A DNA stretch of 64,000 nucleotides. Origin: Salinicola socius. GTDB lineage: Bacteria; Pseudomonadota; Gammaproteobacteria; Pseudomonadales; Halomonadaceae. Below are positions 8,187-19,873 of the stretch, piece after piece. The notes under the pieces were generated by a model. The model was given only the letters and a program-made list of their open reading frames with translations, ran no database searches and had not been told where the DNA came from. Position 1 is the stretch's first letter; the number at the start of each line of letters is the position of its first letter. The stretch covers positions 186,001 to 250,000 of the forward strand of contig NZ_MSDO01000001.1 in the NCBI RefSeq assembly GCF_001937195.1, written 5' to 3'. The translations under genes and the position numbers were made by a program.

Positions 8187-10088
8187 CTAGATCGGACCAC
8201 CCAGCCTCGAGGCCAGACTCTGGTCCGCCGCCCGCTTGAGACCACGGACCCGCCGCTCCAGCGTCCGGCGCGGCGAGTGCCCTGCCGGGATCGGTTCACC
8301 GAAGACCAGCAGTACCCGAGCTCTCAATCGCCGCGGCCATTTGGTCAACGCCTTGCCGTCCTTGTTCGATGTCCACGATCCCCACAATCCCGACAGCGCC
8401 GCCGGCACTACCGGCACCGGATCGCGCGCCAGCACCAGATCGAGACCGCGACGGAAGGCCTGCACGTCGCCGTCCGGCGTCAACCGGCCTTCCGGGAAGA
8501 TCATCACCACCTCACCATTGCGCAGGGCTCGGCTGACTTCCTCCAGGGCTCGCCGCACGCCGCCCGGGTCGCGCCGGTCGGAATCCACGGGAATCGCGCC
8601 GGCGATGCGGAAGAACCAGTTGACCCAAGGATTTTCGTAGATCGGCCGATCCATCATGAAGCGCAGCGGACGAGGACAGGCGCCGCCCAGCACCAGCGCA
8701 TCCATGAAACTGACGTGATTGCAGACCACCAGTGCCGGGCCGGTCGCCGGCACATGCTGTCGACCGCGGCAGCGAAGCCGATAGAGCACTTGGATCAAGG
8801 CGAAGATCAACAGCCGCAGCGCCGGTCTCGGGTTGCGCATCAGCAGGGCGATGCCCACCAGCAGCGCCGACCACCCGAGGCAGGCGAACAGTACGAATAG
8901 CGACAGCTTCATCACGCTCAGCACCACGATCCCGAACACGGCGGACAGGATCATGAACAACGCGTTGAGGATATTGTTGGCAGCGACCATGCGGGCGCGC
9001 CGCTCATCGCGACTGGCCACTTGCATCAAGGTATAGAGCGGCACGCTGTAGAGACCGCCACCGAGCCCCACCAGCGCCAGCAGCGTGCTCATCTGCCAGA
9101 AACCGGTCATCGTCAGCAGTTCGCCAAGCGCCAGCTGTTCGCCGGCAAGGCCCGATTGCGAGGCCAGCTCGAGACCTGACACGCCGATCACCAGCGCCCC
9201 GATCGGCACCAGTCCGAGCTCCAGACGCCCTGCCGACAACCGCGAGCAGAGCAGCGCCCCAAGTCCGACGCCAACCGCGAAGGCCCCCAGCAGAAAGCTG
9301 ACCGCGCCTTCGCTGCCGTGAACCACGTCACGTACCCAGGCGGGCAATTGGGTCAGGTAACAGGCCCCCAGAAACCAGAAGAAGCTGATCCCGATCAGAG
9401 CCGGCCGCACCCGCTTTTCGCCGAGACCGTCGCGCATCACGCGCCAGGTCCCGGAAAACGGTCGCCATGCCACGCGCCCGGCCACACTCGGCGGCGCGGC
9501 GGGAATCTTGAGGCTGACGACGACGCCGATCAGCGCAATGATGATCAGGCTCGCCGCAATCGTCGCTCGGCCCAGGGCGCCATCCAGCGATGCCAGCACG
9601 CCGGCCAGCAGCGTGCCCAGGAGTATCGAGACGAACGTGCCCAGATTGACCCAGGCGTTGCCCTTGACCAGCTCGGTGGCGGCCAGATGCTGGGGGAGAA
9701 TGGCGTACTTAACCGGCCCGAACAGCGCCGACTGAGTCCCCATCATGAACAGCAATGCCAGCAGCAGGCCGAACAGTTCGAACCAGACCGCCACCGCCGC
9801 CGCGATCATCGTCACCAGCTCCAGCAACTTGAGCCGACGTACCAGACGCTGCTTGTCGAGATGGTCGGCGAGCGTACCGCCCCAGGCGGAAAACAGGAAG
9901 AAAGGCAGGATGAAAAGGCCCGCTGCCAGATTGTTGAGCAGTCCCGTGTCCCAGCCATATCGAGGCACGGCAACGAATGTCAGCAGCAGCAGCAGGATGT
10001 TCTTGAACAGATTGTCGTTGAACGCGCCCAGCGCCTGAGTCCAGAAGAACGGCGCAAAGCGGCGCTGGGTCAGAAACCCCGAGATCAC
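8187..10088 (-). CDS. LplT-like MFS transporter fused to PlsC acyltransferase
   Basis: A 633-residue two-part protein. Residues 1 to about 410 form a 12-helix MFS domain that begins like lysophospholipid flippases (FWTQALGAFNDNLFKN). Residues from about 430 form a glycerophosphate acyltransferase domain with NHVSFMD (the HX4D catalytic motif) and FPEGRLT. In E. coli the comparable LplT and Aas are separate and Aas also has an acyl-ACP synthetase domain, which is absent here. Likely job: flip lysophospholipid inward and re-acylate it. The start is a GTG whose first bases overlap the TGA of the upstream TetR gene, so translation is coupled. Confidence 0.88.
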   Translation of the reverse strand: MISGFLTQRRFAPFFWTQALGAFNDNLFKNILLLLLTFVAVPRYGWDTGLLNNLAAGLFILPFFLFSAWGGTLADHLDKQRLVRRLKLLELVTMIAAAVAVWFELFGLLLALLFMMGTQSALFGPVKYAILPQHLAATELVKGNAWVNLGTFVSILLGTLLAGVLASLDGALGRATIAASLIIIALIGVVVSLKIPAAPPSVAGRVAWRPFSGTWRVMRDGLGEKRVRPALIGISFFWFLGACYLTQLPAWVRDVVHGSEGAVSFLLGAFAVGVGLGALLCSRLSAGRLELGLVPIGALVIGVSGLELASQSGLAGEQLALGELLTMTGFWQMSTLLALVGLGGGLYSVPLYTLMQVASRDERRARMVAANNILNALFMILSAVFGIVVLSVMKLSLFVLFACLGWSALLVGIALLMRNPRPALRLLIFALIQVLYRLRCRGRQHVPATGPALVVCNHVSFMDALVLGGACPRPLRFMMDRPIYENPWVNWFFRIAGAIPVDSDRRDPGGVRRALEEVSRALRNGEVVMIFPEGRLTPDGDVQAFRRGLDLVLARDPVPVVPAALSGLWGSWTSNKDGKALTKWPRRLRARVLLVFGEPIPAGHSPRRTLERRVRGLKRAADQSLASRLGGPI

Positions 10089-10699
10089 GAGGCATCCGGT
10101 CGGTAGCTCAGCCCGTTCAGGGTCATCGTCAGCAATTGATCGAGCAATTCACCGACTTCCATCGGCTGCCCCTGCCAATAACCGAGACGATCGTTGAGCC
10201 CCAGTTGGACCAGACCGTGGACACTGCCCCATAGCGTTCTCGCCATGCGTCGAGCGCCGAGGTCGTCGAGGGCCGGCTGATGCGCCTTGAGGGCGCTCTC
10301 GACCCGCAGAAACAGGGCTTCGATGATATGACTCTGGCGCTCGTCCAGCTCACCTTCGTCGGCAAGCGGATATTCGAACAGCATCTGCCAACGGTGGGGT
10401 TCATGCTGGGCAAATTGCCAGTACGCCGTCGCCAGCGCCTTGAGCTGCGGCTCCGGATCGGCATCCTCGAGCCAGGAGACAGCAGCGCCCATACGATCGA
10501 GCGTCTCGATATTGACGTACTGCAGCAGGTTGCTGAAGCTGCCGTACAGCTTGAGCAGCGTGCTCGGTGCACAGCCCACATCGCGAGCCAGCGAGCGCAG
10601 CGACAGCGTGTGCACGGGATTGTCTCTCAGCCAGGCATTGCAGGCCGCCATGACCTGAGCATGGAGCGCCTCGGGGGCGTGCTGTCGCGGTCGAGCCAT
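10085..10699 (-). CDS. TetR-family regulator with WHG C-terminal domain
   Basis: A 204-residue regulator. The N-terminal helix-turn-helix covers about residues 10-60 (LSLRSLARDVGCAPSTLLKLYG), and the ligand domain carries LWGSVHGLVQLGL, the WHG-type signature. Start at MARPRQHAP. It overlaps the next gene (MFS/PlsC) by 4 bases, so it very probably controls that fused phospholipid-recycling gene and itself. Two short palindromes near 10815-10845, upstream of it, are possible operators. The ligand is not predictable; a lipid-related signal would suit the context. Confidence 0.87.
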   Translation of the reverse strand: MARPRQHAPEALHAQVMAACNAWLRDNPVHTLSLRSLARDVGCAPSTLLKLYGSFSNLLQYVNIETLDRMGAAVSWLEDADPEPQLKALATAYWQFAQHEPHRWQMLFEYPLADEGELDERQSHIIEALFLRVESALKAHQPALDDLGARRMARTLWGSVHGLVQLGLNDRLGYWQGQPMEVGELLDQLLTMTLNGLSYRPDAS

Positions 10700-10814
10700 G
10701 AAATTCCTCGCTCGGAATAGTGTCGAATCGCTGCCGATGGTCCGGAGGCCGGAAAAATGTTGTTGTCGACTTAAAATCGAACAGCGTTTCCCAGCATATC
10801 GCCATACCGCATAA

Positions 10815-10845: not shown

Positions 10846-10986
10846 TTCGCGAGAGTTTTACGCCTGATGACCGTAGCTGGCCCAGGCGGAAGCTGGCTGG
10901 GCCATCCGCGCGATAACGCCTTGGCCCCGAGCCCACGGTGGCATAGGCTGTGACTCCTGCAGCCCGCACACCCACGAGGAGAAATC

Positions 10987-11661
10987 ATGGCTGGTCGACT
11001 GCATGTCGACGACTGGACGCGCCATCCGCAACGTCCCGCATTTCGTGGCATCGATCCACCGGTGCTCGGCCCCAACCTGGCGCCTCGCCGATGGTTGTCG
11101 ATGCTGCGCCGGGAGGCGAATGTCACCGTGCTGCGCGACGCGTTCTGGGGCCTCACCCCCACCTGGCTGAAAGTCCTCGATCAGGCGCCTCACTGCGCGC
11201 GCGCCGAGTCCCTCGACGAGCGCCCGATGTTCCGTGAAGCGATGGCGCAACGGCGCTGCCTGATTCCCGTGACCGGCATTTACGTCTGGCAGCCCGGGCT
11301 ACGCGGCAAGCAGCCCTTCATGGTCACTCACACCGACCGTTCGCCGCTGTTGCTGGCCGGCATCTGGAGTCGCTACGCACCGGATACCGGCGAGTCACGC
11401 GACTCGTTTGCGCTGATCACGGTGCCCACCACGGAGGTCATCTCGCCGATGAGCGATCGCCTGCCCGCGGTCATCGCTTCGTCCCAGGCCGAAGAGTGGC
11501 TCTCTCAGGAGACCTCGCTGGCCTCGGCGCGCAACCTGATCGGCGTGGCGGATAGGGAACTGTTGGGCGCTTTTCCGGTATCAAGGCAGGTGAACGACCC
11601 GGCAAATCAGGCGTGGGCTTGCGGTTATCCGACCGGCCCCATGCGGGTGTGGAGTGCCTGA
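10987..11661 (+). CDS. SRAP-family protein lacking the catalytic residues
   Basis: A 224-residue homologue of YedK/HMCES, which shields abasic sites in single-stranded DNA through a covalent bond to Cys2. The fold markers are present: MAGR at the start, GPNLAP (28-33), FWGLTP, RRCLIP, and a late VSRQVN. By hand alignment to YedK all four active-site residues are changed: Cys2 is Ala, Asn75 is Cys70, Glu105 is Val100, and His160 is Ser156. The start codon is well supported, since MAGR aligns with MCGR and AGGAG stands just upstream. It cannot form the usual thiazolidine crosslink, so it is either a binding-only paralogue or decaying. Confidence 0.85.
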   Translation: MAGRLHVDDWTRHPQRPAFRGIDPPVLGPNLAPRRWLSMLRREANVTVLRDAFWGLTPTWLKVLDQAPHCARAESLDERPMFREAMAQRRCLIPVTGIYVWQPGLRGKQPFMVTHTDRSPLLLAGIWSRYAPDTGESRDSFALITVPTTEVISPMSDRLPAVIASSQAEEWLSQETSLASARNLIGVADRELLGAFPVSRQVNDPANQAWACGYPTGPMRVWSA

Positions 11662-11779
11662 AAGGCCACCTCGCCACCTGCTTCGCTGTTGACGACCGGG
11701 TAGAGAGTTCACCGCCTGACCCTTGTTCATCGCCTGGCGTTGTCAGCCAATGAGTCGATCCATTACTGAGAGAGTCTGT

Positions 11780-14719
11780 ATGCAGCAATTCCATCACCGA
11801 GCGTCATCGCACCGTGCGCGGCTCCCCGGCACCTCGGTAGCGCAGCGTTTTGGACTTCGCACCTGGTTCGCTGCCGGTTATCTGGCCCTAGGGCTTGCGC
11901 TGGTCGGCATCACGATGCCTGCAACCACCCTCGCCGCTGCCGATGCCGCCTCGGTGGATCGTGTTCAGCCGACCCAGAGTTCCGCAGCCCAGAGCGCTCT
12001 GGTTCAAAACGCCCTGATCCAGAGCCCTAATGACGACCGCCAGTATCGGGCCATCACGCTCGACAATGGTCTGCAGGCACTGCTGGTCAGCGATCCCGAT
12101 GCCGACAAGGCCGCGGCGGCGATGGATGTCTCGGTGGGCAGCGACAACGATCCGGCCGACATGCCCGGGCTTGCACACTTTCTCGAGCACATGCTGTTTC
12201 TGGGAACCGAGGGATATCCCGATCCGGACGGTTATCAGCGCTTCATCAGCCAGAATGGCGGGTCCCACAACGCCTTTACCGCGGACCAGGACACCAATTT
12301 CTACTTCGATGTCGATCCCGGCGCCTTTCCCGACGCGCTCGATCGCTTCTCGCAGTTCTTCATCTCCCCCCAATTCAATCCCGATTACGTCGATCGCGAA
12401 CGACATGCGGTCAACTCCGAGTATCAGGCGCGTCGTGACGACGACGGCCGTCGCATCAACGAAGCGCTGGGCAAGGCGCTCAACCCCGATCATCCGATCA
12501 ATCATTTTTCCGTCGGCAGCCTGGAGACGCTCAATAGCGACAAACGTCCGCTGCGTCAGGCCTTGCTCGATTTCTATCACCAGCATTACGGTGCCAACGT
12601 GATGCACCTGGCCGTGTTGGCTCCGGAGCCGCTGGACACGATCGAACAGCAGGTGCGTCAGCGCTTCGATGCGGTGCCGGATCGCGACCTGAAAAAGCCG
12701 GTCGTCGATCAGCCGCTGGCGAGAGACGGTGACCTGCCGGCATCGCTGCGCATCAAGACCAACGAAGCCCGGCGCCAGCTGGAGTTCCTGTTCCCCGTCG
12801 ACGACCCGATCCTCGAGTACGCCGACAAGCCCGACGATTATCTTGCCAACCTGCTGGGCCACGAAGGCGAAGGCAGCCTGCTGGCCGCCTTGCGCAAGGC
12901 CGGCTGGGCCGATGGCCTGTCCGCCGGCACGAGCCAGGGCGACGGTCAGCATGCGCTGTTCGATATCTCGATCAGTCTGACGCCGAAGGGCGAAAATCAC
13001 CTCGACGACATCCAGGCAAGCCTGTTCGACCAGATTCGGCGCATCCGCGATCACGGCGTCGACGCCTGGCGCTACGACGAACAAGCCAAGCTGGCCGAAC
13101 AGAGCTTCCGTTTCCAGCAGCGCAGCGAGCCGATCGATACCGTCAGCGGCATGGCAATGAGCCTGGCGCACTATCCGCTCAAGGACGTGCAGTACGCGCC
13201 CTACCGCATGGATCAATTCGACAAGGCGGCGATCGACGACATTCTCGACCGGCTGACACCGGGCAACCTGCTGCGGGTCTATAGCGGGCCGGATGTCTCG
13301 GGAGACGAAACCACACAGTACTTTGCGACGCCCTACACCTTGACGCGTCGCGACGACTGGCCCCGCGGAACGTCACTCGACGGACTGGCGCTTCCCGAGC
13401 CCAACCCCTACATCGCCGAGGACCTCAGCGTCCAGCCGTTCAATAGCGCCGAACCCGCGCGCCTCGTCGATTCACCCAGCGTCGAGATCTGGCACCAGGC
13501 CGACAGCGAATTCGGCGCCCCGCGCGTCGAGTGGCGCTTCAGCCTGCAGAACCCCGATGCCACGCAGGATGCCCGCCATGCGGTGCTGACACGACTGCTG
13601 GCCGGCTGGTTGAACGACGGCCTCAACGAGCGCTTCTATCCCGCTTCGCTGGCCGGCCAGGAGTTTGCGGCCTATGCCCACGGTCGCGGCATCACGCTCG
13701 CCTTTTCCGGATGGCGTGACCATCAGGACCGCTTGATGCAGACGGTCATCGAACAGTTGCAGCAAGGCGATATCACCGATGGCAGCATCGAGCGGGTCAA
13801 GCAGGGATTGGAGCGCAATTGGGAAAACGCGCCCCAGGATGCACTCTACCGGCAGATGCAGCGAACACTGGGCGAGGCCTTGATGCGCCCTCAGATCAGC
13901 ACGCCCAATATGCTGGCAGCGATCGACGAGATCAGCGCCCAGGATGTGCGCGACTACCGCCGGCAGTTTCTCGGCAAGCTCTACGTACAAGCGATGGCGG
14001 TGGGCAACCTCGATGCCACGCTTGCCAAGCGCGAGGGGCTGTTGGTGGCCAACGCGCTGGCGCCCCAACTTCGCGCCGACGACATCCCGCCTTTGACCGT
14101 GCTCGACGTACCGCCGGACGCGCCGGCTCTGCATCCGGCGACGGCGCGAAACGACGCAGCCGTGCTGCGCTACCTTCAGGGGCCCGACCGCGCGCTGCAA
14201 AGCCAGGCCAGCCTGGCCGTGATCGGGCAACTGATCGGACCACCTTTCTTCGCCAAGCTGCGCACCGACGAGCAGCTGGGCTACATCGTCAGCGCCGGCT
14301 ACGCACCGTTCATGGATGCCCCGGGGCTGATGATGCTGGTGCAGTCGCCAAGCGTCGCAAGCGACACCATCGAACAGCGCATGGACGCCTTCCTGAAGAC
14401 CTTCGATCAGCGCATCGAGGCGTTGAGCGATGATGATCTGGCGCCCTATCGCCAGGCCGTGCGTCAGCAGCTGCTGCAGCGCGATCAGTCATTGTCGGCG
14501 CGGGCCGATCGACTGTGGCAGACGCTTGCCTACCCCGAGGCGGATTTCGATCGTCGCCAGCAGTTGGCCGCGCAGGTCGACAAGCTGACCGCCTCGGATA
14601 TCCGCAGCGCCTGGCAGACCCTGCGCCACAGCCCGGCGCTCGACATCACCGCCGACCCGCGCGATCAACCCAGTGACGTCGATGCGCTGACCAGCGACTT
14701 CGAGCCTTTGACACAATAG
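11780..14719 (+). CDS. Periplasmic M16 (insulinase/pitrilysin-like) zinc protease
   Basis: A 979-residue four-domain M16 peptidase resembling protease III (pitrilysin). The inverted zinc motif HFLEH is at 133-137 and the third metal ligand is Glu213 in VNSEY, the expected 76 residues on. A signal peptide follows a basic N-terminus (hydrophobic core near residues 30-55, ending TLAAADA), so export to the periplasm is likely. An Ala/Gln/Ser-rich linker precedes the first domain. Start chosen at MQQFHHR with GAGAG upstream; two earlier in-frame starts would only lengthen the leader. A strong hairpin at 14751 ends the gene. Confidence 0.92.
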   Translation: MQQFHHRASSHRARLPGTSVAQRFGLRTWFAAGYLALGLALVGITMPATTLAAADAASVDRVQPTQSSAAQSALVQNALIQSPNDDRQYRAITLDNGLQALLVSDPDADKAAAAMDVSVGSDNDPADMPGLAHFLEHMLFLGTEGYPDPDGYQRFISQNGGSHNAFTADQDTNFYFDVDPGAFPDALDRFSQFFISPQFNPDYVDRERHAVNSEYQARRDDDGRRINEALGKALNPDHPINHFSVGSLETLNSDKRPLRQALLDFYHQHYGANVMHLAVLAPEPLDTIEQQVRQRFDAVPDRDLKKPVVDQPLARDGDLPASLRIKTNEARRQLEFLFPVDDPILEYADKPDDYLANLLGHEGEGSLLAALRKAGWADGLSAGTSQGDGQHALFDISISLTPKGENHLDDIQASLFDQIRRIRDHGVDAWRYDEQAKLAEQSFRFQQRSEPIDTVSGMAMSLAHYPLKDVQYAPYRMDQFDKAAIDDILDRLTPGNLLRVYSGPDVSGDETTQYFATPYTLTRRDDWPRGTSLDGLALPEPNPYIAEDLSVQPFNSAEPARLVDSPSVEIWHQADSEFGAPRVEWRFSLQNPDATQDARHAVLTRLLAGWLNDGLNERFYPASLAGQEFAAYAHGRGITLAFSGWRDHQDRLMQTVIEQLQQGDITDGSIERVKQGLERNWENAPQDALYRQMQRTLGEALMRPQISTPNMLAAIDEISAQDVRDYRRQFLGKLYVQAMAVGNLDATLAKREGLLVANALAPQLRADDIPPLTVLDVPPDAPALHPATARNDAAVLRYLQGPDRALQSQASLAVIGQLIGPPFFAKLRTDEQLGYIVSAGYAPFMDAPGLMMLVQSPSVASDTIEQRMDAFLKTFDQRIEALSDDDLAPYRQAVRQQLLQRDQSLSARADRLWQTLAYPEADFDRRQQLAAQVDKLTASDIRSAWQTLRHSPALDITADPRDQPSDVDALTSDFEPLTQ

Positions 14720-14819: not shown

Positions 14820-17800
14820 CTAGAAACGTATCTTCAGATTGGCGTCGACACTCTGGTCCCGTGCGTCGCTGGCCAGTCTGCCCGTATAGCCTACCCCCAC
14901 CGAGGTTGCCGGCGAGATCGCCATGTCGATCCCGGTTTCGAGCGTGATGGCGTCCTCGCCCACCGGAACGGCATCGACCGAAAAGGTGTCCCCGACCCGG
15001 AATGCCTGGTCCGCCGTCGGTGTCCGCTCGCCAAAAGCGTGCTGCCAACCCACCGCCGCCTGCCAACCGGCGTTTACACTGCCGATCTCGAATGGCGTCG
15101 TCGACCGCAGCCCCAGCGTCGAAAAGGTAACGTCGGCGTCCCCATCCTGGCCATGCAGGCCCGCCTTTCCGCTCTCCTGATAGCCGTCGCTGTGCAGATC
15201 GACATAGGCGAGTCCGGCGTAGGGCTCCAGCCGAGTCCGGCCCGCCGTCAGAGAGATGCCGATCTCGCCGAACACTTGAGCGGTGCGAGCATCGTAGGAA
15301 GCCTTGGCCGTCTCGAAGTCCGCGACGTCGATCGAGCGGCGCGTGTCGACATCGTGCCAGGATTGCGCCGCACCCAGACGCAGACCCAACGGCCCGAAGG
15401 ATCGGCCGGCGTAGGCGACCAGAGTGTAGCTGTCGATATCAGCGGACGAATCGCGACGGTCGACATCGTAGTCCGAGCGACCATAACCCGCGGCCATACC
15501 GAGTCGCCACGCATCACTTTCGCTGGCGCCCATCATCGTATCGACCCCCACGAAAAGCCCGTGTATCGAGCGCTCCAGCCCGGCAGCATTGTCATCGCCG
15601 TCACTCTCACCCCAGCCGCCAAACCCTTGCAGCCAGAACCCCGACCGGTCGCTGGACAGCCCTTCCATGGCCAATGAGGTGGCAATGGCGACATGAGGAG
15701 ACTCCGCGTCGGCACGACGGATCCGCTCGAACACCGCCTCGCGCACGAACCGGCTCTCCTCGATCAGCCCGGTGCGCGTGCTGGCATGAATCTCGCCGGA
15801 AAGCGCGTCGTAATCGTGGCCAAGCTTCGCGGTATCGGTCGTGCTGATGATCAGGTCGTAGAGACCGTTGCCCGCGCCCAGACTCTCGATCCCGGCGGCC
15901 GCCGCACGCTGATTATCGCTCGCGGCAAGATCGGCGAAGCGGGTGTCGTTGCGCGTGACGTCGAGCACGACGGCATTGTTCCGATAATCCAGATCGAGAT
16001 CGAAAAACGGTGAGTATGCTTCGGGATCGGTGTAGACGCCGCTGACGCCCTCGGTCGCGGTGACCAGGGTGTAGCTCGAGGCCGCATAAGCGGCATCCGA
16101 TAGCGGCGTCACGACGAGCTCGCCAGCCAGCGCCGCCATGCCATCGACGCGGATTCGATCGGCGCGCCCGGCGCCATCGATCTCCGCCTGATAGGTCGAA
16201 CCGGCGGTCTGCCGGTAATCGCCGGTCACGTTCAGCTGGCCGACGGAGTGGCCGGGCGAGATGGTGCCATTCACGGTCACCTCCCCCAGCGTGCCATTGC
16301 CTTCGAGCAGGCCCTCGGCCGCAACCGTCAGCGGGCCATCCAGCGTGCCGTCCAGATCGAGACGACTGCCGCTGGTGACGTCGATCCCATCCGCATAGCG
16401 CTGAATGCCGGTGATCCGCCAGTCACCGTTGATCGAGAGCGACTCGAAATCGTCGCCACCGGCAAATTTACCGTCACCGTCGAGCAGGACGCTATCGACG
16501 CCATCTCCACCATCGATACGACCATCGAACGCCCCGCCAGTCTCGACGACCAGCGTATCGTCACCATCACCCAGATCCAGCGCCAATCCGTTACCGCCGG
16601 CAATCCGCCCCGAGTTGACGACGGTGTCGTCGTAGTCGCCGACCAGCGAAATCCCGTAGCCATCGATGCCTTCGATGGTGCCGCGGTTGACGATCGTGGT
16701 CTCGCCATAGGCACCACCGCTGCTGCCATCGTCGATCAGAATGCCGTTGTCGGCGCCGCTGATCAGCGCACTCTCGCTGGCATTGACGATGGAGCCGCCG
16801 CCCATGGCGATACCTTCGCTCTGACTGGGCGTATCGCCCGGCTTCTGGCCCTTGGCTCCGGTTCCCCGGATCGTGCCGCGGTTGGTGATATCGCCAATGA
16901 AGTCGATATCCACGCCGTCGCCATCGCCCAGTTCGGAGTCGCTATCGATGTCGCCGCTGATCAAGCCCTCGTTGACGACCGTCCCATTGCCATCGGAACC
17001 GATACCCGAGCCGTTGCGACCCCGGATCGTCGCCCCGACCGCGTTGTAGACGGTCACGTCGACATCGGTCGTGATACCGTGGCGTGCGCCGGAGATCGTG
17101 CCACCGGCCAGATTGTTGACTGCCGCGGCATGGGCTTGAAGATCGACCGCGTCGTTGGAGGCATCGGGTTCGCTGCTGTTGGAGACGATGGTGCCGGTAT
17201 TGTTGACCGTGGCGCCCTCTCCCGGGCGCAGGGCATCGGCATCTTCGGCCCGGATTTCGCCGCCGACGTAGTTATTGATCGTGACGGCGGTCTGCCCGGA
17301 CTCGATGTGATCGAAATCGATCGCCTGACCGGCATCGTCGCCGGTGCCGGAAGAGAGAATCAGGCCGTGGTTGTCGACCGTGACGACGCCGTTGGCGCCC
17401 CGCTGGTCGTCATCGCCATCGATTCGCACGGCGTCGTCGATGGACTCGATGATCCCGGTACGATCGTTGGTCAGATGAAATTCGGAAAGGTTGGCGACAT
17501 CGTCGACATTGATCGCCCGGTTGGCGGAGGCCGTCGACAGAATCCGGCCCGCGTTATCGATGGTGATCTTGCCGGCGCCCGGGCGAATCGCATCGTTGTC
17601 GTCGGCCTCGATCACGCCACTTTCGGCATTGGTGATCGTGACGACGGCCGTCGGCGATTCGATCGAGTCGAAATCCAGAACCTGACCGCCGATCGAGTGC
17701 AGGGTGCCTGCGTTATCGACGCTGATCTCGCCATCGGTGACGTCGGTGTCGTCCCGGAAGGCGTCGTCACCCGTTTCGATAACCGCGCCGGCGGCGTTGT

Positions 17801-18131
17801 ACAGCGTCAGCGAGCGCTCGCTCTCGTCGCCATCGGTATCGATGCCCCGGCCCCGACTGAGAATCGAGCCGGCGTTGATGATGGTCACGCCGGGCGCGGG
17901 CGACGCCCCGGTCCACTCGACCGCGGTGTCCCCGGTTTCGAGCACGGCCCCGGCCTCGACGCTCAACGTATCCGTACCGGTCACGCTGCGAGGTGTCGCT
18001 TCGCTGTCACCACCAGCGATGGTATAGACGTCGGCAATGCTCAGCACCGGCACCAGTGCCGAGAACGCCGCCGCAGAAAACGACACCGCCATCAGCGCCA
18101 CGCCGCGACGCCGTCTGATCTCGATCCCCAT
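14820..18131 (-). CDS. Type Va autotransporter, large acidic passenger
   Basis: A 1103-residue outer-membrane autotransporter. After a basic N-terminus and hydrophobic signal (RRRRGVALMAVSFSAAAFSA) comes a passenger of about 750 residues made of degenerate beta-helix repeats with the theme TINNAGxI. It is very rich in Asp and Gly, and I see no cysteine. A stretch with GDGDDTLVV and GGDGVDSVLL resembles calcium-binding RTX nonapeptides. A linker helix leads to a C-terminal beta-barrel of about 270 residues starting near FWLQGFGGWGES and ending IRF, the sorting phenylalanine. Start MGIEI has GGGAG upstream. Function of the passenger (adhesion, biofilm) is a guess. Confidence 0.9.
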   Translation of the reverse strand: MGIEIRRRRGVALMAVSFSAAAFSALVPVLSIADVYTIAGGDSEATPRSVTGTDTLSVEAGAVLETGDTAVEWTGASPAPGVTIINAGSILSRGRGIDTDGDESERSLTLYNAAGAVIETGDDAFRDDTDVTDGEISVDNAGTLHSIGGQVLDFDSIESPTAVVTITNAESGVIEADDNDAIRPGAGKITIDNAGRILSTASANRAINVDDVANLSEFHLTNDRTGIIESIDDAVRIDGDDDQRGANGVVTVDNHGLILSSGTGDDAGQAIDFDHIESGQTAVTINNYVGGEIRAEDADALRPGEGATVNNTGTIVSNSSEPDASNDAVDLQAHAAAVNNLAGGTISGARHGITTDVDVTVYNAVGATIRGRNGSGIGSDGNGTVVNEGLISGDIDSDSELGDGDGVDIDFIGDITNRGTIRGTGAKGQKPGDTPSQSEGIAMGGGSIVNASESALISGADNGILIDDGSSGGAYGETTIVNRGTIEGIDGYGISLVGDYDDTVVNSGRIAGGNGLALDLGDGDDTLVVETGGAFDGRIDGGDGVDSVLLDGDGKFAGGDDFESLSINGDWRITGIQRYADGIDVTSGSRLDLDGTLDGPLTVAAEGLLEGNGTLGEVTVNGTISPGHSVGQLNVTGDYRQTAGSTYQAEIDGAGRADRIRVDGMAALAGELVVTPLSDAAYAASSYTLVTATEGVSGVYTDPEAYSPFFDLDLDYRNNAVVLDVTRNDTRFADLAASDNQRAAAAGIESLGAGNGLYDLIISTTDTAKLGHDYDALSGEIHASTRTGLIEESRFVREAVFERIRRADAESPHVAIATSLAMEGLSSDRSGFWLQGFGGWGESDGDDNAAGLERSIHGLFVGVDTMMGASESDAWRLGMAAGYGRSDYDVDRRDSSADIDSYTLVAYAGRSFGPLGLRLGAAQSWHDVDTRRSIDVADFETAKASYDARTAQVFGEIGISLTAGRTRLEPYAGLAYVDLHSDGYQESGKAGLHGQDGDADVTFSTLGLRSTTPFEIGSVNAGWQAAVGWQHAFGERTPTADQAFRVGDTFSVDAVPVGEDAITLETGIDMAISPATSVGVGYTGRLASDARDQSVDANLKIRF

Positions 18132-18247
18132 GAAGCTCCCCTGATCCATGCTTGTTGTTTGTCATCAAGGGAATGCAGGCTAGGCAGTGTGTGTGACAGC
18201 GCGATGACGCGCGACGATTGCACCCTGAATGTCGGGCACGAGACATC

Positions 18248-19741
18248 TCAGTAGGCGTCGAAGGCCTGCTCCGGCATGATCGATTCGACGTACATCACCA
18301 GTTCCTCGAGCACCTGGCGTTCACGATCCTCCAGCGGGGTCTGATTGAGGCGTTCGATCTCGCGGGCGAAATCCTTGAGCGTCATTCCGCCACTGTGGGC
18401 GTCGTTCATGCGCGTCCAGCGGAAGGCATCCCACTGCGCTTTCTCGTCGCTGCTGAGGGTATCGGGGTAGCTACGCGCCCGCATCCGGAACAGCATCTCC
18501 TCGAGCCGAGGATCCTGAAACGCGAAGCCGGTTTCGCCCAGATCATCCGGCGAGGTGGCATGCACGCGCTCCATCGCCTGGCGGTCGTGCGGCGAGAAAA
18601 AGCCGCCGGAGTAGAGCATCAGATCGGGATCCTGCGGCGGATCGGCGGGCGCATCGGCGAAGGCCAGAGCTGCCTTGCTGGCGGATTCCGGATTCTGCAC
18701 CAGCGCTTGCCAGTGGCGCTCGCACAGCGGCCGGTCGAGCCCCAGGCGCTTGGCCACGGTCTCGTCTGCCGTGGCGATCGGCAGCAGCACCGGGCTACGA
18801 TTGAGATGGACCACTTTCAACGGAATTCGCGTCTCGCCTTCGGCCAGCTCGCTGTCGCTGACGAAGATGCGCGCGCGAATCTCCTCGGGCGTCAGCGAGA
18901 ACAGCGGCGCCGGGTCGACGGCGAGATCATAGACGATGATCCCGTTGGGATTCGAAGGGTGTGCGGCCAGCGGCACGACCAGCGCGCTGCAGCCCCGACT
19001 GGCGGGATAGCGCCGCGAGATGTGAAGCATCGGCTTGCGGGCCTCGACATCGAGCAGCCCGGCCACCCGGCGCTTCTGACGCAACGACAGCAGATAATCG
19101 AAGAACTTGGGGTTCTGCGCCCGCAGCAGCCGAGCCAGGCCGATCGTGGCACGCACGTCCGCCAGCGCATCGTGAGCGCCCTCGTGCTCGATACCATTGG
19201 CTGCGGTGAGATGCTCGAGCTTGAAGCTCGGCGCGCCATCCTCGCGCTTCGGCCATTCGATGCCCTCGGGACGCACGGCATAGAACGCGCGCACGGCATC
19301 GATCAGATCCCAGCGTGAATTGCCGTTCTGCCACTCTCTGGCGTAAGGATCGAAGAGATTGCGATAGAACAGGTGGCGGCTGACTTCGTCATCGAAGCGC
19401 AGGCTGTTGTAGCCCAGAGAACAGGTGCCGGGAACGCTCATTTCCGCCTGAATCCGCGCGGCGAATTCCACCTCGGGCACGCCACGGCGTAGCGCCGCCT
19501 GCGGCGTGATACCGGTGATCAGACAGGCTTGGGGGTTGGGCAGGTCGTCATCGGCCGGACGCGCGTATAGCGTCAGCGGCTCGCCGATTTCGTTGAAATC
19601 GGCATCGGTGCGAATCGCCGCGAACTGGGAGGCTCGGTGCCGTCGCGGATCGGCGCCGAAGGTTTCATAGTCGTGCCAGAGGAACGTCAGTTCTGCCTGG
19701 GGCTGGGCTTTTTTGCCATGGACCATTCCACTCTTGGCCAT
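18248..19741 (-). CDS. sbcB: Exodeoxyribonuclease I
   Basis: Cytoplasmic 3'-to-5' single-strand exonuclease used in recombination and mismatch repair. It has 497 residues against 475 in E. coli, with a longer N-terminus. DEDDh motifs are visible: FLWHDYETFGADPRRHRASQ near residue 20 and HDALADVRATIGLARLL near 190. The family-specific SH3-like and C-terminal helical regions follow. GGAG precedes the ATG at 19741; an internal start at MVHGKK is possible. It stands alone between the autotransporter and minE, both on the same strand. Confidence 0.95.
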   Translation of the reverse strand: MAKSGMVHGKKAQPQAELTFLWHDYETFGADPRRHRASQFAAIRTDADFNEIGEPLTLYARPADDDLPNPQACLITGITPQAALRRGVPEVEFAARIQAEMSVPGTCSLGYNSLRFDDEVSRHLFYRNLFDPYAREWQNGNSRWDLIDAVRAFYAVRPEGIEWPKREDGAPSFKLEHLTAANGIEHEGAHDALADVRATIGLARLLRAQNPKFFDYLLSLRQKRRVAGLLDVEARKPMLHISRRYPASRGCSALVVPLAAHPSNPNGIIVYDLAVDPAPLFSLTPEEIRARIFVSDSELAEGETRIPLKVVHLNRSPVLLPIATADETVAKRLGLDRPLCERHWQALVQNPESASKAALAFADAPADPPQDPDLMLYSGGFFSPHDRQAMERVHATSPDDLGETGFAFQDPRLEEMLFRMRARSYPDTLSSDEKAQWDAFRWTRMNDAHSGGMTLKDFAREIERLNQTPLEDRERQVLEELVMYVESIMPEQAFDAY

Positions 19742-19873
19742 TCCGCTCTCCGCCTGCGCAAAAGGCCAAGCCTAGCATAGCCGGCAACACGACTCATGTG
19801 CCGCTGAGCGACTGACCGACCATCGACTCGCGAAGCATCTGTTCGCGAGCCCTGATCCGAGTCGTCGGCGACA

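Follow-up and report, generated by a model that had tools for sequence, protein, structure and literature searches.

A Family-Wide SRAP-Fold Protein of Halomonadaceae That Has Lost the Catalytic Residues of SRAPs

The pSRAP Locus

The window, that is, the whole stretch of 64,000 nucleotides analysed here, comes from a genome of Salinicola (Halomonadaceae). Its forward strand carries a coding sequence (10987..11661) for a 224-amino-acid SRAP-fold protein without the four catalytic residues of SRAPs, opened by an ATG at 10987–10989 and closed by a stop codon at 11659–11661, with the coordinates and frame given in an earlier note on this DNA. The label pSRAP is used here for this catalytic-residue-less protein of Halomonadaceae. 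The initiator, considered secure in the same note, is well placed: a Shine–Dalgarno-like GAGGAG precedes it on the forward strand (10976..10981), and 107 of 123 pSRAP orthologues have a Shine–Dalgarno-like core at most 20 nt 5´ of this start. Upstream of the ATG, the frame continues for only 11 codons before a stop, and no M–C start occurs among them; together with the Shine–Dalgarno-like sequence, this rules out an alternative start yielding Cys2.

Downstream, on the same strand, lies a gene for a pitrilysin-like M16 metallopeptidase (11780..14719, from the ATG chosen at 11780; another in-frame ATG is found at 11750). Its product has a signal-like N-terminus, as read from the sequence, and three M16 domains plus one PqqF-like domain above the Pfam cut-offs, while its score against the NCBI pitrilysin equivalog (551 bits) is below the cut-off of 765. 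A divergent gene for a TetR-type regulator is located upstream on the reverse strand (10085..10702, with a chosen start). Beyond the M16 gene, the reverse strand carries an autotransporter gene (14820–18149) and then an exonuclease I-type gene (18251..19771, a stop-to-stop frame whose domains were shown on the copy of a relative). In another genome of the genus, at locus L092, the M16 gene is directly followed by the exonuclease I-type gene, unlike the window, where the autotransporter gene stands between them.

SRAP Family Membership and Predicted Fold

The SRAP model PF02586 matches pSRAP with 136.6 bits against a cut-off of 27.1, over profile positions 34–213, and is its sole Pfam match at E up to 0.001. 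The closest solved structures by sequence are BT_1218 (2f20), YedK and HMCES. An AlphaFold2 model of pSRAP has a mean pLDDT of 88.4 and a TM score of about 0.8 to YedK–DNA complexes. Its PDB matches with E no higher than 0.001 number 21, and each is YedK, HMCES or a structure that the accessible part of PMC3765255 names as an SRAP. The 41 input rows comprised the window protein, nine Salinicola orthologues and 31 canonical viral SRAPs, so that the fold similarity is partly built in. pSRAP is thus a SRAP by descent (PF02586) and by predicted fold.

The predicted model shares its fold with E. coli YedK (TM 0.72–0.81 by query length) and with the SRAP domain of human HMCES (TM 0.81–0.84 by query length). 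The YedK framework residues R4, N37, P40, W61, P65, W67, E79, R95, G102, W106, R162, P164 and W175 are kept. In contrast, C2, N75, E105 and H160 of YedK are replaced, identity in the structural alignments is 24–25%, and the C-terminal part is unlike that of YedK. HMCES likewise differs from pSRAP, since its chemistry relies on an invariant Cys2, according to the available portion of PMC9436759, whereas pSRAP is devoid of Cys2 and of the acid–base residues.

Loss of the Catalytic Residues

The SRAP domain is found in all domains of life, and its catalytic residues, with an invariant Cys2, are described as absolutely or highly conserved in the accessible sections of two papers (PMC3765255, PMC9436759). 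As far as the available text of published YedK biochemistry goes, the cross-link requires Cys2 and Glu105 is next in importance, while His160 acts in ring opening and the effect of N75A is modest.

When pSRAP is aligned with YedK, the forward-strand codons at these positions encode Ala in place of the Cys2 nucleophile (codon 2, 10990..10992), Cys in place of Asn75 (codon 70, TGC, 11194..11196), Val in place of Glu105 (codon 100, GTC, 11284..11286) and Ser in place of His160 (codon 156, AGC, 11452..11454). The four substitutions listed in the earlier note are therefore confirmed as Ala2, Cys70, Val100 and Ser156.

The catalytic columns were read from an alignment of 136 distinct proteins: 123 orthologues from 123 genomes (22 genera) and 13 canonical SRAPs, including E. 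coli YedK. These proteins were kept from 171 matched loci (141 distinct proteins). Left out were L021, L071, L080 and L081 (no start motif, frameshifted or cut), L083 (the same protein as L080) and L129, a 625-residue run-on. The last of these, from an 80% complete draft (G212), joins pSRAP and part of the M16 gene in one frame, possibly through an assembly error.

The canonical residues C–N–E–H are all kept in the 13 canonical rows, and the 123 orthologues have almost entirely lost them, retaining Cys2 in none, Asn75 in three, Glu105 in six and His160 in one. Position 2 is Ala in 75, Thr in 34, Ser in eight and Pro in six. At position 75, Cys is found in 101 sequences, Asn in three (of genera g10 and g23) and another residue in 19; within the genus of the window, two genomes lack Cys75, as do g6, g14, g16 and g22. 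Position 105 is occupied by Val (73), Ile (19), Ala (15), Leu (9), Gln (1) or Glu (6), all six cases of Glu105 belonging to g16, a genus placed in the sister clade of the rest. Position 160 holds Ser (58), Thr (57), Ala (3), Gly (3), Asn (1) or His (1). Judged from these columns, what is conserved at positions 105 (V/I/A/L) and 160 (S/T) is the loss and not a new motif, with Cys at position 75 as the only widely fixed replacement.

Orthologues and canonical SRAPs were separated by a script according to residue 2, and the zero count of Cys2 was therefore cross-checked by score. Against the window protein, canonical rows score 58–88 bits and orthologues 135–512 bits, with no kept row in between and no Cys2 row above 100 bits. 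The grouping by residue 2 agrees with this gap and with the tree.

Two cysteines, Cys70 and Cys212 (11620–11622), are not present in the canonical rows and occur together in 100 of the 123 orthologues; both are gone in g6, g14, g16, g22 and the same two Salinicola genomes. On the tree, this link is not significant with three independent pairs, and a Cys70–Cys212 disulfide or metal site was set aside for this reason.

It is conceivable, though unlikely, that the chemistry has been relocated rather than lost, abasic sites being attacked by Cys75, which is new, and by the free α-amine of whichever residue (Ala, Thr, Ser or Pro) occupies position 2, via a Schiff base, a lyase reaction or another thiol adduct. 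Residue 2 is one of these four in 123 of 123 orthologues, and Met is normally removed before Ala, Thr, Ser or Pro at this position. Furthermore, residue 75 of YedK contacts residue 2 in the available portion of PMC9436759, and YedK C2A still forms the Schiff base and retains lyase activity, as stated in the accessible text of the biochemical work. However, YedK depends on Glu105 for those steps, and 117 of 123 orthologues carry another residue at this position; according to the same text, C2A/E105Q shows a 25-fold slower lyase reaction and a 10-fold slower Schiff-base formation than C2A alone. The genera and genomes without Cys75, the three sequences with Asn75 and the non-significant cysteine pair also argue against relocation.

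Extent of the Loss beyond the Active Site

The earlier note had described a loss of active-site residues only. This claim was examined with two yardsticks. For the broad one, those YedK positions were taken at which 63 non-redundant outside SRAPs (192 before reduction) reach at least 90% conservation, with no filter on catalytic residues, and a position was counted as kept when retained in at least 80% of 64 non-redundant pSRAP orthologues. The outside SRAPs are a convenience set made up of the canonical SRAPs of the family, YedK, five loci of the order, 27 loci of the class and viral contigs. Among them, L279, L318, L323, L349 and L353 have a frame without the N-terminus, and L228 has no residue at the column of position 160. 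Four others, L172, L173, L283 and L342, have their N-terminus and depart from C–N–E–H, and were still included in the broad set.

By the broad yardstick, 21 of 25 positions are kept in pSRAP and the four lost are C2, N75, E105 and H160, so that all 21 non-catalytic positions are retained. The chance of losing exactly the catalytic four is 1 in 12,650 if any four of the 25 are taken as equally likely and phylogeny is ignored. Filtering the outsiders for C–N–E–H gives 23 kept positions and, again, the loss of these four. The narrow yardstick, consisting of YedK and the family's 12 canonical SRAPs, gives a different picture: of its 42 invariant positions, 25 are kept and 17 are changed, including the catalytic four and R35, Y36, G41, T42, Y63, W103 and R138. 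The cradle of pSRAP may be reshaped, since 17 of 42 narrowly invariant positions have changed. The description in the note therefore holds against SRAPs at large (four of 25, all catalytic) and fails against the close canonical relatives.

Altered active sites are also seen in the four outsiders mentioned above. L172 and L173 (same order, family f8) carry C–N–D–T, i.e., half-altered active sites. L283 (G655, same class, another family) is a Cys2-less SRAP beyond the pSRAP clade, with L–N–T–C, Arg162 kept and a long branch. In L342, from a viral contig, the SRAP frame begins M–F–G–R, with Phe at position 2, and Asn75, Glu105 and His160 are kept.

Distribution, Phylogeny and Selection

A match to the window protein (P0001) is found in 18 of 18 genomes of the genus (E up to 1e-15) and in 271 of 275 genomes of Halomonadaceae, covering 22 of 24 genera (E up to 1e-30). 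pSRAP is a family-wide core gene and not a feature of one strain. In a class sample of 369 genomes, the pSRAP profile scores 341–352 bits in the three genomes that belong to the family, and scores elsewhere do not exceed 174.7 bits. Among 390 genomes sampled from the order, P0001 has matches in four that are not of the family, none above 97.1 bits. Hence, no pSRAP orthologue was seen outside the family in these two samples.

In a tree of 81 rows, the 40 orthologues included (of 123) are separated from all other rows by a branch with 100/100 support. The pSRAP pseudoenzyme would have become fixed no later than in the family's common ancestor. The median dN/dS is 0.20 among 14 sequences of the genus (91 pairs) and 0.13 among seven sequences of genus g5 (21 pairs), both values being approximate because synonymous sites are well diverged. 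The clade is under purifying selection. Moreover, the pSRAP orthologues are basic, with a median pI of 8.91 (n = 123), compared with 6.01 for the canonical SRAPs of the family (n = 12) and 6.96 for SRAPs of the class (n = 27).

These data bear on whether pSRAP is a SRAP copy that has lost its function and is slowly drifting, which we consider extremely improbable. Frameshifted or cut copies do exist at L021, L071, L080 and L081, at least three of them in drafts of less than 95% completeness. Nevertheless, the near-universal presence, the dN/dS of about 0.13–0.20 and the 21 of 25 broadly conserved positions kept lead to the rejection of slow decay for the clade as a whole, and near-universality, dN/dS and the kept framework likewise rule out the recent decay of a single gene. 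The preference of the earlier note for a function "rather than decay" is borne out by the 271 of 275 genomes, both dN/dS values and the 100/100 clade.

Coexistence with Canonical SRAPs

The genome that contains the window has two further SRAP genes (L001 and L002), both with C–N–E–H, so that the canonical copies for which the earlier note asked to look elsewhere in the genome are present. The canonical SRAPs of the family belong to the same Pfam family as pSRAP and have a similar length; they differ in that 12 of 12 keep C–N–E–H, in being mostly acidic (median pI 6.0) and in branching apart. In the family, the SRAP Pfam model finds matches in 272 of 275 genomes, with more than one in 119 and exactly one in 153 (counted by eye). 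A second SRAP match is therefore limited to 119 of 272 genomes, compared with pSRAP in 271 of 275. Because 153 of 272 genomes have a single match and pSRAP is present in 271 of 275, pSRAP is the sole SRAP seen in more than half of the genomes. In four genomes of genus g8 (G062, G071, G083 and G085), six to eight SRAP matches are found in each, and the pSRAP match stays single.

A role as a decoy or modulator, in which pSRAP competes for the same DNA as a canonical SRAP or pairs with it, would be compatible with the two canonical genes of the window genome and the 119 genomes with more than one match. Yet we regard it as very unlikely, as the single match is pSRAP in 153 of 272 genomes and nine of 18 genomes of the genus have no second SRAP match. 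The picture in the earlier note of a paralogue beside a canonical SRAP hence suits the window genome and not the family. Judged by these sequence matches, pSRAP would be a core pseudoenzyme and not merely a partner of canonical SRAPs.

Genomic Context and Regulation

Of 41 loci, 40, representing 22 genera, have the M16 gene 3´ of pSRAP and in the same orientation; L124 is the exception. An in-frame M16 ATG overlaps the pSRAP stop codon in 17 of the 40. The exonuclease I-type gene is convergent to M16 in 38 of 40 loci, and tetR is near pSRAP in 36 of 40, not being detected beside it in g14, g16 and g22. The outer genes, corB-, lplT-aas-, tetR-, minD- and minC-like (the min names read from sequences), are conserved in 35–37 of 40 loci.

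In other families of the order, no SRAP gene was found beside M16 in 27 M16 loci (about 1.5 kb on each side, shorter in some), and three of these loci, from two families (L370, L375 and L379), have M16 and the exonuclease I-type gene adjacent. This suggests that pSRAP was placed before M16 in the ancestor of the family. The adjacency of pSRAP and M16 is weak evidence of joint function, since genes further out are also conserved in 35–37 of 40 loci.

This arrangement raises the possibility, which we consider doubtful, that the scaffold has been repurposed to bind RNA, a small molecule or another protein. Such a role might be connected with making or controlling the M16 protein, to which pSRAP is translationally coupled in many genera. 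The constancy of the pair within the family, the start/stop overlaps and the absence of SRAP from the 27 outside loci speak for it, as do residues conserved specifically in the clade, e.g., L5, R34, F53, L64, D65, M81 and G217. On the other hand, the wider gene block is conserved too, so the adjacency may be inherited gene order; the M16 protein looks exported and pSRAP does not; and the broadly conserved SRAP framework is retained.

With respect to regulation, no LexA-like box (CTGT-N8-ACAG, at most one mismatch) was found between 10700 and 10990 of the window, although the family's own LexA box may differ. Across the 171 loci, LexA-like sites, all with one mismatch, occur in 19 by raw count, seven of which represent one shared site of g5. 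SOS control of the window gene through a LexA box consequently finds no support with this consensus, which is possibly not the family's own, and a damage-induced role of pSRAP is without support because no such box precedes the gene.

Possible Role of pSRAP

The nucleophile, the positioning Asn and both acid–base residues are missing from pSRAP, which should therefore not form the thiazolidine cross-link of YedK and HMCES. On the basis of the residues that define YedK/HMCES-type cross-linkers, which were looked for and found replaced, pSRAP would not be classed with them. As all four residues needed in published YedK biochemistry, in the portion available, are replaced, pSRAP should hold DNA at best. 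It keeps, in YedK numbering, residues such as Arg4, Asn37, Pro40, Trp61, Pro65, Trp67, Arg77, Trp106, Lys113 and Arg162. According to the accessible part of PMC9436759, mutations in the YedK active site reduce cross-linking and leave DNA binding intact. The same text places the strongest conservation of HMCES and YedK in the DNA-binding channel and the active site.

The best explanation, to which we give even chances, is that pSRAP is a retired SRAP enzyme that acts as a reversible holder of single-stranded or gapped DNA without covalent chemistry. Its cradle would still bind such DNA reversibly; abasic sites may be the targets, with pSRAP serving there as a non-covalent cap or sensor. The protein would be made together with the downstream M16 protease. 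The binding-only or regulatory role suggested in the earlier note likewise stays an inference. Consistent with DNA holding, the catalytic four are the sole losses among 25 positions, YedK mutants keep DNA binding in the available account, and the pI is basic (8.9 versus 6.0). Near-universal presence in the family, the 100/100 clade, purifying selection and the predicted fold (TM of about 0.8) point in the same direction. However, a basic protein of SRAP fold could bind another ligand, and the signal-like N-terminus of the M16 partner is hard to reconcile with a cytosolic DNA role.

A fuller version of DNA holding is put forward tentatively: beside or instead of a covalent SRAP, the family may keep a fixed, often translationally coupled pseudo-SRAP, the sole SRAP in over half of the genomes, that would shield abasic or gapped single-stranded DNA reversibly or via a relocated Cys75 thiol. 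If so, we know of no earlier example of a natural SRAP that is binding-only or re-plumbed.

In the accessible part of PMC3765255, ImuB, an inactive-looking polymerase paralogue of the SOS response, offers a parallel as a pseudoenzyme in a DNA-damage context, although its fold is different and the likeness to pSRAP is one of analogy only. In the available text of PMC11078745, deletion of yedK leaves Brig1 immunity unaffected. Among the literature matches listed, in a search whose scope lay outside preprints and most subscription journals, none dealt, in the text available, with a Cys-less SRAP or clade of SRAPs, or with SRAPs of Halomonadaceae.

A match to PF02586 alone should not lead to annotation as an abasic-site cross-linker or peptidase. 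By combining the loss of the four catalytic residues with a broadly kept framework, the Halomonadaceae clade separates the DNA-holding and cross-linking roles of the SRAP fold. The clade suggests that this fold, present in humans as well, has another function here. It lends itself as a natural experiment on whether an SRAP remains useful once its chemistry is gone, a question that bears on HMCES in human cells.
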